A stretch of DNA of 64,000 bases from Polyangiaceae bacterium. Its GTDB lineage: Bacteria; Myxococcota_A; Polyangia; Polyangiales; Polyangiaceae. The stretch lies in contig CANJMI010000007.1 of NCBI GenBank assembly GCA_947475525.1, positions 62,001 through 126,000 of the forward strand. The letters run 5' to 3'. The translations under genes and the position numbers were made by a program. Shown one piece after another: positions 11,480 to 45,977 of the stretch (positions within the stretch are counted from its first letter, which is position 1; each line of letters begins with the position of its first letter). The notes under the pieces were generated by a model. The model saw only the letters and a program-made list of their open reading frames with translations. It was not told the origin of the DNA and searched no databases.

Positions 11480-11514
11480 ACTTTTGGCCTGTGCTTTTCA
11501 GCCTGGGCTTTCTT

Positions 11515-11590
11515 GCTCTTCGGCTGACGCCTCATTGCTTCTTAGCTCTTCGGCTGACGCCTCATTGCTTCTTAGCTCTTCGGCTGACGG
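11515..11590. repeat. 30-bp tandem repeat, about 2.5 copies
   Basis: The unit GCTCTTCGGCTGACGCCTCA plus TTGCTTCTTA is present twice perfectly (11515-11544 and 11545-11574). A third partial copy keeps the first 15 bases and then diverges. It lies between two convergent genes (barrel stop 11479, DUF5995 stop 11620). The core CGGCTGACG recurs in the leader of pyrC near 46958 and 47006. Confidence 0.85.
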
Positions 11591-11619
11591 CTCACGCTAA
11601 CGTACCTTCGCGGTCAGGC

Positions 11620-20348: not shown

Positions 20349-20467
20349 GGCCGAAGGCGCGCACGTCTCTGCCGTGCACGTGCCATGGCGGCGGCTTGAT
20401 GCTACCGAAGCGATCGGCCATAAAGTCAGGCCCTTCCCGACGCGTTTTTTAGTTTTTGGATTCAAAC

Positions 20468-22024
20468 ATGACTTTGCCTGGTAACGGCCAATCAAGCTCC
20501 CTTCGCGCGGACGTCGGTGCCGGCCTCGTGGTGTTCCTCGTAGCCCTCCCGCTGTGCCTCGGCATTGCCCTCGCGTCCGGCGCGCCGCTGATGGGTGGCC
20601 TGATTGCCGGGGTCGTCGGGGGGCTCGTCGTCGGCATCCTCTCCGGCTCTGAGGTCAGCGTCAGCGGGCCCGCGGCAGGCCTGGCGGTGATCGTTTTCTC
20701 GTCCATCGAACAACTCGGCTCGTACCAAGCGTTCCTCGCCGCGGTCGTCATCGCGGGGGTCATTCAGCTCGCGCTCGCTGCGCTGCGGCTCGGCGTCGTA
20801 GCGGAATACGTACCCACGACCGTGATCAAAGGGATGCTCTCCGCGATCGGCCTCGCGATCATCCTGAAGCAAATCCCGCACGCCCTTGGCCGTGACGCCG
20901 ACTTCGAAGGCGACCTGAGCTTCCTCGAGCATGGTGGCAAGGAGAACACGCTCTCGGCGATTGCGAAGGCCGTGCTCAGCGCGCACCCTGGTGCACTGAT
21001 CATAACCGGGATATCGCTGGCGATCCTCGTCGGCTGGGACAAGGTCGTCGTCCCGCGATTGCCCCGCGCAAAAGCGATCCCCGCCGCGCTCGTCGTCGTC
21101 ATCCTGGCTATCGCACTGAACGAGACCTTCAAGAAACTGTTTCCCGCGTTGGCGCTGCAGGCCGAGGACGCTCACCTCGTCTCGCTGCCGACCTCGTTCA
21201 ACGCGCTCCAAGCGCAACTTACAACGCCCGCAATGAGCGCGTTTTTGAATGTGCGGGTCTATACGGTCGCCCTCACGATCGCGGTGGTCGGAAGTCTCGA
21301 GACGCTGCTCTCGCTCGAGGCCTCCGAAAAGCTCGACCCGTTGCGACGCTTTGCCTCGCCGACGAGGGAGCTCTTTGCGCAAGGGACCGCCAACATTCTC
21401 TCCGGCCTCATCGGCGGATTGCCCATCACCTCGGTCGTCGTGCGCACCTCGGCAAACGTCTACGCAGGCGCTCGCTCGCGCTGGGCGAGCATCGTCCACG
21501 CGGCCTTCCTCGCCTTGGCGATCCTGCTTTTGCCCTCCGTGCTCATTCGGATCCCACTCGCCGGGCTCGCCGCGATCCTGATCGTCGTCGGCGTGAAGCT
21601 AGCGCCCCCTTCGCTTTTCCGCGCGATGTGGAACGAAGGTTGGACGACCTTTCTACCGTTCATTCTCACGGTTCTTGGCGTCCTCTTCACCGACCTCTTG
21701 AAGGGCGTGGTCCTTGGGATCCTCGTCGGTGTCTTCCTCGTCATGCGCGCAAATCACCACGCAGCGATGACGCTCGTAAGCGACGGCGACGCCCACCTCC
21801 TGCGGTTCAACAAAGACCTCACGTTCGTCAACAAGGCGGAGCTAAAGGCGAACCTCGCCACCGTGCCCGCCGGGGCGAGCCTCACGATCGACGCCACGCG
21901 GGCCCTCTACCTGGACCGGGACATCTTCGACGTCCTCGATGATTTCATCGAAAGCGTCCAGAGCAAGCCGATCGAAGTCGAGCTTAAAAACTTCAAGGGC
22001 AAGCGCCCCAATTCAAAGGATTGA
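20468..22024 (+). CDS. SulP-family anion (bicarbonate) transporter with STAS domain
   Basis: 518 residues with 10-14 membrane helices. Landmarks include [40 protein letters not shown], and [19 protein letters not shown]-terminal STAS-like domain (about 425-510) carries [11 protein letters not shown] and [20 protein letters not shown]. The gene is followed by a carbonic anhydrase whose start overlaps its stop (TGATG), which favours bicarbonate rather than sulfate as substrate. ATG 20468 is used; a TTG 12 bases earlier is in frame. Family-level call firm, substrate inferred. Confidence 0.9.
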
Positions 22025-22689
22025 TGATGGACAACTACAAACAACTCCTCCTGGCCAACAAGGCCTGGGTCCTGGAAAAGCTGCAGATCCGCCCCGACTA
22101 CTTCGAGCGGCACGCCCAAGACCAAACCCCGAACTACATGTGGATCGGTTGCGCGGACAGCCGCGTGCCTGCGGAGGACATCACCGGAACCGAGCCGGGT
22201 GAGCTCTTCGTGCACCGCAACGTCGCAAACCTCGTCGTCCACACCGACTTCAACGTGCTGAGCGTGCTGCAATACGCCGTCGACGTGCTCGAAGTGAAGC
22301 ATATCATCGTGTGCGGCCACTATGGCTGCGGCGGCGTGAAGAACGCGATGACCAACCGCGACTTTGGGCTTATCAACAAGTGGCTTCGCAACATCAAAGA
22401 CGTCTATCGGGTCTACCACCGCGAACTCGAAGCGATCGGCAACGAGCAGCTCCGGTTCGACCGGCTCGTCGAGCTCAACGTAAGTGAGCAGGTCCAGAAT
22501 TTGGCGCAGACCTCGATCATCCAGAAGGCTTGGAAGAAGCGCAAGGGCCCGACGATCCACGGGTGGGTCTACGACCTGAAGACGGGATACGTGAAGGAGC
22601 ACGCTGAGATGAACTCGCAGTCCGCGCTCGACCCGATCTACCGGTTCGACTTCGACGGGCCACGCAGCATCACGCCGCCAACGACGTGA
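22024..22689 (+). CDS. can: Beta-class carbonic anhydrase
   Basis: 221 residues, highly similar in layout to E. coli Can. It interconverts CO2 and bicarbonate in the cytoplasm. Zinc ligands are visible: C43 and D45 (GCADSR), H99 and C102 (CGHYGCGG). [19 protein letters not shown] and ANLVVHTD are family segments. ATG 22024 overlaps the transporter stop; a second ATG follows immediately. The pairing with the SulP gene suggests a bicarbonate uptake and equilibration unit for carboxylation reactions. No regulator is visible. The convergent M1 peptidase gene ends 25 bases away. Confidence 0.95.
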
Positions 22690-22714: not shown

Positions 22715-24058
22715 TCAGCGGTCCGGTCGCCCGAGCGAACGCAACCAACCGTCGGCGAGCGGCTTCGAGTCGAATCCGGTTGCCGTGTCGAGTGTGTCGA
22801 GCAGGTCTTGCATGCGCGCAGCCTTGCCTTTGTGGTCGCGGTAGAATTTACCGATCGCCGCATCGAGCGCGGGTTTGCCGACCTTGGCCTCGAGCGCCCG
22901 GAAAAAGAACGCGCCCTTCATGTACGGAACGGAATTCCAAAGGTCGGTGAGGACATCGATCTCGTTGCAGGTGTCGGGCAGCGCGCGACGGTCTTCGGTC
23001 GCAATGACGTTGTCGAGTTCCTGTTCGTAGCCCTTCCAAATTGCGGCACCGGCGGACGCGCCTGCCGTCGCTTCGAGCGCGCGCGCGGCAAGGTAGCTCA
23101 CGGTGCCCTCGGAGAGCGTGAGGTCTTCCCAACACTCGAGGCGCACACCGTCCCCGAACCAACCGTGAGCGGCTTCATGAGCGTGGGTTTCAGCGTCGCC
23201 CATCGAGTCGCTGGAGACGTGCCAGAGCGGATGATGCTCCATGCCCCCGAACGCGCCCGCGCCCCACTTCGCCGACACCGAGCCGACATCCTTACCGAAG
23301 AGGTACTCACCGTAGGTTTGCTCGAGCCAGTCGAAAACGCTGACCAAGTGGAGGGTCCCCTTGAGTGCGGTGGCCTTCTCACCGGGGAGGTAATGCACGC
23401 TCACCTTGCGGCCCGCGCTCGTCGTGCCGAGCTCGACCTTCGTGTAGTCGCCCACCGCCCATGCGAGCATGTACGAAGGCGAGTCAGCGGGAATGCTCGG
23501 GGCAAACACGACGTTCGTTCCAGCCGGAGCCCCGTGGACGTCGAGCGAAAACGCGAGGCCATCGGCCGGCTCGGTCTTGCAAGGGAAGACGTTGCCGCAG
23601 AAGTACGGCCACGTGAAGCTCGTCCCGCTCGCGAGCACGCCCTCGAGCTTCTTGTGACGCGTAAACCCGTACTCCACGCGAATCTCCGCGGGCTTTTGCG
23701 CCTGCAGGCCAACGTCGAGTTGGCCATTCGCGACGCGGTATTGCAACGGACCTTGAGGGCCCCGCACGGACTCGATAGCGAGGTCGCCGATTTGAAACGA
23801 TGCGCCCGTGCGCGTCGACGCATCGACCGAAATCACCGCGCTCGCGTGGTTCGTGGCGAGATCGACATCGAGCGAGGTCGAGAGCACATCGCGCTTCCAA
23901 TTCGTCGTGGGCGCTGGAGCCTTCACGTCGAACTCGTCCGCGCCGACCGAAGTCGTGCAACCGAACGCGAGCATCGCGAGCAGCCCCATGAAAGGGAGCG
24001 GACGAAGGTGAGCGGCTCTCATTGCCCTAGCGGCTCTCATTGCCCTAGCGGCTCTCAT
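22715..24058 (-). CDS. M1-like zinc metallopeptidase lipoprotein
   Basis: 447 residues counting from the first of three in-frame starts. The lipobox is LAFGC (C34). The zinc site is H294, E295, H298 and E317: HEAAHGWFGDGVRLECWEDL continuing to LSE, an exact HEXXH-X18-E. GGMEH at 271-275 replaces the aminopeptidase GAMEN motif, so exopeptidase substrate preference may be altered. Conserved cysteines FCGNVFPC likely form a disulfide. The first start overlaps the upstream stop (ATGA). The N-terminus contains an MRAARA repeat encoded by three 18-bp copies, each offering a start codon, so N-terminal length may vary. It probably acts in the periplasm or on the cell surface. Confidence 0.85.
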   Translation of the reverse strand: MRAARAMRAARAMRAAHLRPLPFMGLLAMLAFGCTTSVGADEFDVKAPAPTTNWKRDVLSTSLDVDLATNHASAVISVDASTRTGASFQIGDLAIESVRGPQGPLQYRVANGQLDVGLQAQKPAEIRVEYGFTRHKKLEGVLASGTSFTWPYFCGNVFPCKTEPADGLAFSLDVHGAPAGTNVVFAPSIPADSPSYMLAWAVGDYTKVELGTTSAGRKVSVHYLPGEKATALKGTLHLVSVFDWLEQTYGEYLFGKDVGSVSAKWGAGAFGGMEHHPLWHVSSDSMGDAETHAHEAAHGWFGDGVRLECWEDLTLSEGTVSYLAARALEATAGASAGAAIWKGYEQELDNVIATEDRRALPDTCNEIDVLTDLWNSVPYMKGAFFFRALEAKVGKPALDAAIGKFYRDHKGKAARMQDLLDTLDTATGFDSKPLADGWLRSLGRPDR

Positions 24059-24064
24059 TGCCCT
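24011..24064. repeat. 18-bp tandem repeat (3 copies) carrying a start codon
   Basis: AGCGGCTCTCATTGCCCT is repeated three times without change. On the minus strand each unit is AGGGCAATGAGAGCCGCT: a Shine-Dalgarno-like AGGG, an ATG, and the first codons of the M1-like gene. The first copy also contains the stop codon TGA of the preceding gene (ATGA overlap). The repeat keeps the frame (18 = 6 codons). Confidence 0.95.
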
Positions 24065-24363
24065 AGCGGATCGACGAGCTCAAAGAGCGCCTGCGCGTCC
24101 GTATCGGTCGGGCGATGTCCGAGCTGGGCTTCCCGCATGATCTTGTCGATGCGCTCGCTTGCCTCCTGGATTTTGCCTTTTTTGATCGGCAAGAACACAT
24201 CGGGATTGCCAGCAAAGTGAGCCATGCCGTCGAGCGCAACTTCGAGGTGTCCCGTCGCCGGGTTCACGATGGCGGAGCGGATGTGGCTCCGGCCTTCGTA
24301 GATCTTCAGAAGGTACGTGAGAAGCTCGGCCACGCTACTAGGAACGGTTCGTACAAAACTCAT
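24055..24363 (-). CDS. Small conserved hypothetical protein
   Basis: 102 residues from ATG 24363 (AGG a few bases upstream); a TTG two codons earlier is in frame. No signal or membrane segment. Sequence pattern: amphipathic N-terminal helix VPSSVAELLTYLLKIY, then HIRSAIVNPATGHLEVALDG, and a charged helix EASERIDKIMREAQLG. It overlaps the start of the M1-like gene by four bases, so it is translationally coupled to it and could be its partner or regulator. No family is recognised. A 12-bp palindrome, TTTCAGCTGAAA, is 12 bases upstream of its start. Confidence 0.65.
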   Translation of the reverse strand: MSFVRTVPSSVAELLTYLLKIYEGRSHIRSAIVNPATGHLEVALDGMAHFAGNPDVFLPIKKGKIQEASERIDKIMREAQLGHRPTDTDAQALFELVDPLGQ

Positions 24364-24374
24364 TGCCAAACGCC

Positions 24375-35718: not shown

Positions 35719-35722
<4 letters not shown>
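34808..35722 (-). CDS. ldcA: LD-carboxypeptidase (peptidase S66)
   Basis: 304 residues. Cleaves the D-Ala from L-D linked tetrapeptides during murein recycling, in the cytoplasm. The catalytic triad is visible: S115 (GFSDVTAL), E207 (ILFLEDVTE) and H275 (PAGHGVV). No signal peptide. The start overlaps the stop of the giant TPR gene by four bases, so the two are coupled. Full-length compared with the family. Confidence 0.92.
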
Positions 35723-41229
<5,507 letters not shown>

Positions 41230-44930: not shown

Positions 44931-45926
44931 ATGAGCACGCGCGTTCTGTCGGGAATTCAGCCCTCGGGCGTCAAGCACCTCGGCAACTATTTCGGCGCGA
45001 TTCGCCAGCACATCGAGCTTCAGGAACGGTTTGCCGGCGAGTGTTTCTACTTCATCGCGGACTACCACGCGCTGACCACCCTTCAAGACGCGCAAGCGCT
45101 CCGTGCCAGCGTGCACGAGCTCGCAGTGACGTACCTCGCGCTGGGGCTCGACCCAGAGAAAGCATTGCTCTTTCGGCAAAGCGACGTCCCCGAAGTGACC
45201 GAGCTCGCGTGGCTCCTCGCGACGGTGACGGGCATGGGTCTCCTCGAGCGCGCGCACAGCTACAAGGACAAGGTCGGCCGCGGACTCACAGCGTCGGTGG
45301 GACTGTTCACGTACCCGGTGCTGATGGCCGCGGACATTCTCATCTACGACGCAGCGCTGGTTCCGGTCGGTAAAGACCAAATTCAACATGTCGAGATGAC
45401 GCAAGACATGGCGACGCATTTCAACCAAAACTACGGCCAAGGCGTTGAGCTGCTGCACCGGCCCGAATTTCGATTGTCAGAAGCGCCCTACGTGACCGGC
45501 ACCGACGGCCAAAAAATGAGCACGAGCTACGGCAACACACTGCCGCTCTTCGAATCGGGCAAGAAGCTGAAGAAGCTCGTCGGCGGCATCGTCACCGACT
45601 CCACCGAGCTCGGGCAGCCTCTCACCCCGGAGCGCTGCAACGTGTTCGCGCTCTTGCGCCTGTTCGCGCCGGCCGACGATCTCGACCGCATCGACGCGTA
45701 CTACCGCTCCGGACTCCGAGACGGCGAGCCCTTCGGCTACGGCCACGCAAAGCTCCTACTCGCCGAGTACATCGAACACCATTTCTCTGGCGCGCGCGTG
45801 CGGCGCGAAGAGCTCCAAGCGCACCCGGAGCGCGTCGAAGACGTGTTGCGTACATCGGCCCTACGCGCCCGAGCGACTGCCCGAGCGACCCTCGACCGAT
45901 GCAAGCGCGCATGCGGATTGTTATGA
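44931..45926 (+). CDS. trpS: Tryptophanyl-tRNA synthetase
   Basis: 331 residues. Class I synthetase that charges tRNA-Trp. The HIGH-like signature is PSGVKHLGNY (11-20) and the KMSKS loop is KMSTS (195-199). GKDQIQHVEMTQDMA and AADILIYDAALVPVG are standard active-site segments. ATG 44931 gives the family N-terminus; a TTG three codons earlier is in frame. A 26-bp duplication spans the stop codon. It converges on the PPC-domain gene. Confidence 0.96.
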   Translation: MSTRVLSGIQPSGVKHLGNYFGAIRQHIELQERFAGECFYFIADYHALTTLQDAQALRASVHELAVTYLALGLDPEKALLFRQSDVPEVTELAWLLATVTGMGLLERAHSYKDKVGRGLTASVGLFTYPVLMAADILIYDAALVPVGKDQIQHVEMTQDMATHFNQNYGQGVELLHRPEFRLSEAPYVTGTDGQKMSTSYGNTLPLFESGKKLKKLVGGIVTDSTELGQPLTPERCNVFALLRLFAPADDLDRIDAYYRSGLRDGEPFGYGHAKLLLAEYIEHHFSGARVRREELQAHPERVEDVLRTSALRARATARATLDRCKRACGLL

Positions 45927-45971
45927 GCGGCGCGATTCGCTCGAGGTTATGAGCGGCGCGATTCTATCGAG
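45920..45971. repeat. 26-bp tandem duplication spanning the trpS stop codon
   Basis: GTTATGAGCGGCGCGATTCG plus CTCGAG (45920-45945) is followed by a copy that differs at two bases (45946-45971). The first copy contains the trpS stop TGA. It is a recent slippage event with no obvious effect on the protein. Confidence 0.9.
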
Positions 45972-45977
45972 GTGAGG

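Follow-up and report, generated by a model that had tools for sequence, protein, structure and literature searches.

A triplicated 18-bp start-codon junction before a predicted lipoprotein peptidase gene in a Polyangiaceae bacterium, very probably a young, near-neutral minisatellite

Introduction

Why should the start codon of a peptidase gene, together with the stop codon of the gene in front of it, occur three times in a row? The question is raised by a locus in a 64,000-nucleotide stretch of DNA from a Polyangiaceae bacterium, called the window here. An initial annotation had reported a triplicated 18-bp start-codon junction at window positions 24011 to 24064, and had proposed that the arrangement is an unusual means of tuning translation or signal-peptide length.

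Results

The triplication proved exact, both by TRF and in the sequence. TRF reported a period of 18, 3.3 copies, 100% matches, and a score of 118 for positions 24011 to 24069, and given that result a chance origin of the array is excluded. On the minus strand, which also carries the upstream gene and the peptidase gene, the whole array (24011 to 24069) is (CCGCTAGGGCAATGAGAG)x3 + CCGCT, with no mismatches. Positions 24011 to 24064 make up exactly three full units (minus-strand unit, AGGGCAATGAGAGCCGCT), and the fractional 0.3 copy counted by TRF is exactly the pentamer CCGCT at 24065 to 24069, so that the array extends 5 bp beyond 24064. This pentamer, conserved in the related genome G001 (GATCCGCT), also closes every unit, giving a direct repeat of 5 bp whose copies lie 13 bp apart, and the array may equally be phrased as CCGCT-AGGGCAATGAGAG three times, followed by a closing CCGCT.

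In copy 1 (24047 to 24064), the 5'-most on the mRNA, ATG1 at 24058-24056 overlaps the upstream TGA at 24057-24055, giving an ATGA with the usual -4 spacing. ATG2 at 24040-24038 in copy 2 (24029 to 24046) and ATG3 at 24022-24020 in copy 3 (24011 to 24028) follow the upstream stop by 14 and 32 nt, respectively. Since 18 bp is six codons, ATG2 and ATG3 (24040 and 24022) share the peptidase reading frame with ATG1 (24058), and for the same reason all three TGAs stand in the frame of the upstream gene, the first alone being reached. The initial annotation had assigned the upstream stop, as ATGA, to the first copy; it is indeed there, but copies 2 and 3 hold an ATGA too. Its further point, that gain or loss of a unit keeps the frame and changes both the length of the N terminus and how many candidate starts there are, formally holds. 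The peptidase has the N terminus MRAARAMRAARAMRAAHLRPLPFMGLLAMLAFGC, each copy adds RAARAM to the n-region of the signal peptide, and the protein is 447, 441, or 435 amino acids long from ATG1, ATG2, or ATG3. A fourth in-frame ATG, at 23989, lies outside the array.

The downstream gene (22715 to 24058) encodes an M1-like zinc peptidase, a predicted lipoprotein (LAFG-C). Its open reading frame, running from 24058 to 22715, matches the Pfam family Peptidase_M1 (PF01433) with an E value of 4.8e-21, its translation contains an M1 zinc site of the HEXXH-x18-E form (HEAAH-x18-E), and its best PDB relative is the cold-active aminopeptidase 3cia. The presumed lipobox cysteine codon is at 23957 to 23959. 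A signal with a lipobox-like terminal cysteine was found in most of the homologs checked, from other Polyangiaceae, other Myxococcota, and gammaproteobacterial symbionts, and the peptidase N terminus is therefore expected to be removed at the cysteine. The upstream open reading frame (24055 to 24363) encodes 102 amino acids from the ATG at 24363, or 104 from a TTG at 24369, and ends ...DPLGQ*, with its TGA inside copy 1. A Pfam search of the protein returned no family. It is 85% identical in G001 and present in few relatives, so the gene looks real. On the other side of the peptidase gene, positions 20456 to 22689 hold a SulP-type transporter gene and then a carbonic anhydrase gene, with open reading frames that overlap by 4 bp; these are likely a bicarbonate transport pair.

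The same gene pair occurs without the array on contig C113 of G001, a genome of the same genus. There the junction reads GATCCGCTCGGAGCTTGAGCACCG, the upstream frame ends DPLGA*, and a TTGA takes the place of the ATGA at 24058-24055, so that an NTGA start/stop overlap is present in both genomes. The end of the G001 junction, ...GATCCGCTCGGAGCTTGAG, lines up with one copy of the array position for position with no net gap, and the alignment score against G001 falls from 58.8 with one copy to 48.0 with two and 42.6 with three. A start at ATG3 gives a lipoprotein signal of 22 residues including the cysteine (MRAAHLRPLPFMGLLAMLAFGC), the same length as in G001, where a TTG start is followed by STVSFRSFFTACLLVGGAHGC. 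The ungapped fit of one copy, the kept NTGA overlap, and the equal 22-residue distance point to one copy as the likely ancestor. We consider it most likely, on this one junction comparison, that the single-copy state is ancestral and that the array is a lineage-specific expansion. The polarity rests on G001 as the sole other genome with the same junction, at a protein identity of about 63 to 85% and on a contig that breaks off within the peptidase gene. Loss of an array in G001, rather than expansion in the focal genome, may have occurred instead, but it is disfavored by the equal start-to-cysteine lengths.

In G003, G004, and G002 the peptidase is 70, 62, and 60% identical, respectively, and the upstream junction is absent. 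No array of this kind was found at the peptidase start in any of 40 other homolog loci; the arrays near those loci lie within Gly/Asp-rich linkers or other sequence. The comparison covers one genome per species, and the nearest other species (G001) has one copy-equivalent.

The relatives also bear on which start is used. Our home-made codon-score gene caller chose the fourth ATG (ATG4, 23989), and if that were the true start, the array would be a mere intercistronic leader. This seems very unlikely: an ATG4 start would leave a signal of 11 residues, MGLLAMLAFGC, that lacks the positive charges seen in the signals of many homologs, it has no Shine-Dalgarno sequence (duplex, +0.7 kcal/mol), and it would break both the NTGA overlap and the 22-residue length common to the two genomes.

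The array probably arose from a single copy by replication slippage. In the ancestor, the end of the upstream gene and the start of the peptidase gene would have shared a single NTGA overlap with a CCGCT direct repeat on both flanks; replication misalignment between the two CCGCTs would then have produced an 18-bp duplication, and a second event three copies. G001 has the first CCGCT and lacks the second, and we regard the 5-bp repeat as a plausible seed for slippage. The perfect identity of the copies could also be a product of selection or homogenization. Elsewhere in the 5.15-Mb genome the unit does not occur above control level: five further matches were found, all with 3 mismatches, which equals the count for a reversed-pattern control.

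To place the array among others, 1.66 Mb of the focal genome was surveyed for tandem arrays with a period of 12 to 60, at least 2.5 copies, and at least 90% matches. Fifty-five arrays were found, and all 40 that lie wholly inside coding sequences have a period divisible by three. Random placement would give 2.0 arrays over a stop, 2.2 over a start, and 1.2 over both. Stop-spanning arrays numbered 5 to 6, against an expectation of 1.6 to 2 for the stop alone and 2.7 to 3.2 with start-plus-stop cases, and start-spanning arrays 0 to 1, against about 2, or about 3 with start-plus-stop cases. Our array was tallied as stop-spanning because the caller took the fourth ATG as the peptidase start; counting it as start-spanning gives at most 2. 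By these counts the junction array is not remarkable and starts are not preferred, and a class of arrays targeted to start codons was rejected, as the observed start-spanning counts are not above expectation. The stop-spanning arrays (L142 5905-6039, L132 8383-8444, L097 15956-16004, L098 10912-10994, L147 10999-11051, and window 45920-45973) are seemingly commoner than random (6 versus about 2 to 3), which is expected if duplications over stops are tolerated, and perhaps arrays favor the 3' ends of genes. Two other repeats of the window lie in one gene (35719-41229, minus strand) for an 1,836-amino-acid TPR-like protein: long Gln/Tyr/Ala-rich tandem repeats (AAYAQQQGYD) at its C terminus, at 35858-36265, and a 12-bp repeat of 12.5 copies at 39961-40110 that encodes PVAA repeats.

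What would three starts do? The upstream reading frame would still terminate at the first TGA, and neither gene would be harmed. Ribosomes that finish the upstream gene could, if the genes are coupled, restart at ATG1 (-4), ATG2 (+14), or ATG3 (+32). According to a review, coupling efficiency changed little from -4 to +25 nt in one study and was 3- to 10-fold lower near +40 in others (PMC12548453); by that comparison the three starts appear to fall in or near spacings with reported coupling. Each product would keep a cleavable lipoprotein signal, the differences being 6-residue, Arg-rich RAARAM blocks before the hydrophobic core, and with cleavage at the cysteine the anchored mature enzyme is predicted to be identical for all three starts. 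Most likely, the array adds up to twelve residues to a disposable leader peptide and changes little.

Initiation signals differ slightly among the copies. The AGGG of the unit is separated from the ATG by 2 nt, a spacing too short for a good Shine-Dalgarno sequence. In copies 2 and 3 a weak GAGAG context arises (-4.3 kcal/mol for ATG2 and ATG3 versus -1.8 kcal/mol for ATG1, with a generic anti-Shine-Dalgarno tail assumed), which may affect initiation slightly. The predicted RNA fold around the junction was not better than those of shuffled sequences (z = +0.86). The shared mature enzyme that is predicted, the small Shine-Dalgarno difference, the AGGG placed too close to the start, and the unremarkable fold all argue that the array is near-neutral.

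Discussion

In light of these observations, we believe that the array is very probably a young, near-neutral minisatellite at a tolerant junction. The proposal that it tunes translation or signal-peptide length found no support, as the array is absent from the G001 gene pair and from all other homologs examined, alters the removable n-region alone, and places its starts near the coupling range in a genome where tandem arrays are common. A contingency device, in which copy number tunes translation or export of the peptidase through the number of starts and the length of the Arg-rich n-region, is nevertheless conceivable, given that the unit is in frame and carries a start with a weak Shine-Dalgarno-like context, and that at the fpg1 gene of Mycobacterium tuberculosis the length of a repeat upstream of the start correlates with the mRNA level (PMC2734929). 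We consider it very unlikely here, with only three copies, a lineage-specific array found in none of the relatives examined, an unchanged predicted mature protein, and no RNA structure. More speculative, and to be given very little weight, is the idea of an in-frame rheostat, in which the number of units would set the coupled starts and the Arg count and would yield reversible variation in export or expression between cells; our literature search returned no description of signal-peptide n-region minisatellites as phase-variable.

Nor is such an arrangement as unusual as had been suggested. The array consists of head-to-tail, near-identical units with start and stop codons inside the unit, and so belongs to a kind of start/stop-spanning minisatellite already known in other bacteria. 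Among the variable-number tandem repeats (VNTRs) of Yersinia pestis, likewise short tandem repeats, the start codon lies within the unit at 6 loci and the stop codon at 10, and copy change alters the length of the open reading frame (PMC3689786). Unlike in Y. pestis, where strain variation was measured, the array here is known from a single genome of its species, and each unit combines the upstream gene's stop with the in-frame start of the gene that follows.

Repeats are also known at coupled junctions in mycobacteria (PMC12548453, PMC2734929). MIRUs sit at NTGA start/stop overlaps, where the -4 coupling is kept and both genes are spared (PMC12548453); they are dispersed, apparently mobile elements of about 40 to 100 bp (PMC2734929) with a small open reading frame of their own that is coupled at both ends. 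Our array resembles them in its tandem units at an NTGA overlap, its -4 coupling spacing, and the sparing of both genes. It differs in its 18-bp unit, its single locus, and the residues that it adds to the downstream protein, and it was rejected as a MIRU on two grounds: the unit is not dispersed, and its 18 bp are translated as part of the peptidase and form no open reading frame of their own. The M. tuberculosis rnc-fpg1 repeat (ETR-F/VNTR3239) extends up to the start codon, is missing from mycobacteria outside the complex, and has a length that correlates with mRNA level (PMC2734929). Both that repeat and our array are lineage-specific repeats at a stop/next-start junction, the relatives of rnc-fpg1 having only a few bp there (PMC2734929). 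The rnc-fpg1 repeat differs from ours in its length of about 280 to 360 bp, its position between the genes and not inside the downstream frame, and its accompanying expression data.

The array might instead belong, in short and degenerate form, to a dispersed, stop-associated tandem-repeat family of the genus (core GATGAGGCGTCAGCCGAAGAGCC), mobile or dispersed as MIRUs are. There is a loose likeness (GCAATGAG versus GAGAGCCG), the placement right at a stop codon is similar, and of 300 shuffled versions of the unit, 5 reach its score against the family. This origin is extremely improbable, as the native G001 junction can be aligned with the unit without gaps, and membership was rejected when a profile search gave no match even at an E value of 100.

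This dispersed tandem-repeat family, with the core GCGATGAGGCGTCAGCCGAAGAGCCAA, has a unit spacing of about 28 to 41 bp and 1 to 8 copies per site. Its core has 72 matches in the focal genome (control, 1), 22 in G003, 4 in G001, and 0 to 2 in other relatives, with sites at window 11510-11594, L139 7628-7913, L142 5905-6039, L164-L175, and L177-L183. The arrays examined are intergenic, and most begin a few to about 70 bp past a stop codon. Judged from these matches, the family is genus-specific and MIRU-like in distribution, and it may be more interesting than the array studied here.

For the peptidase locus, the array carries a warning for start-site annotation, in that gene callers will choose differently among three equivalent ATGs. 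Were its copy number both variable and functional, the array would act as a simple rheostat of protein export. Mainly, it offers a clean example of why overlapping stop/start junctions tolerate short duplications: termination at the first stop is preserved, and any start that is in frame can serve.
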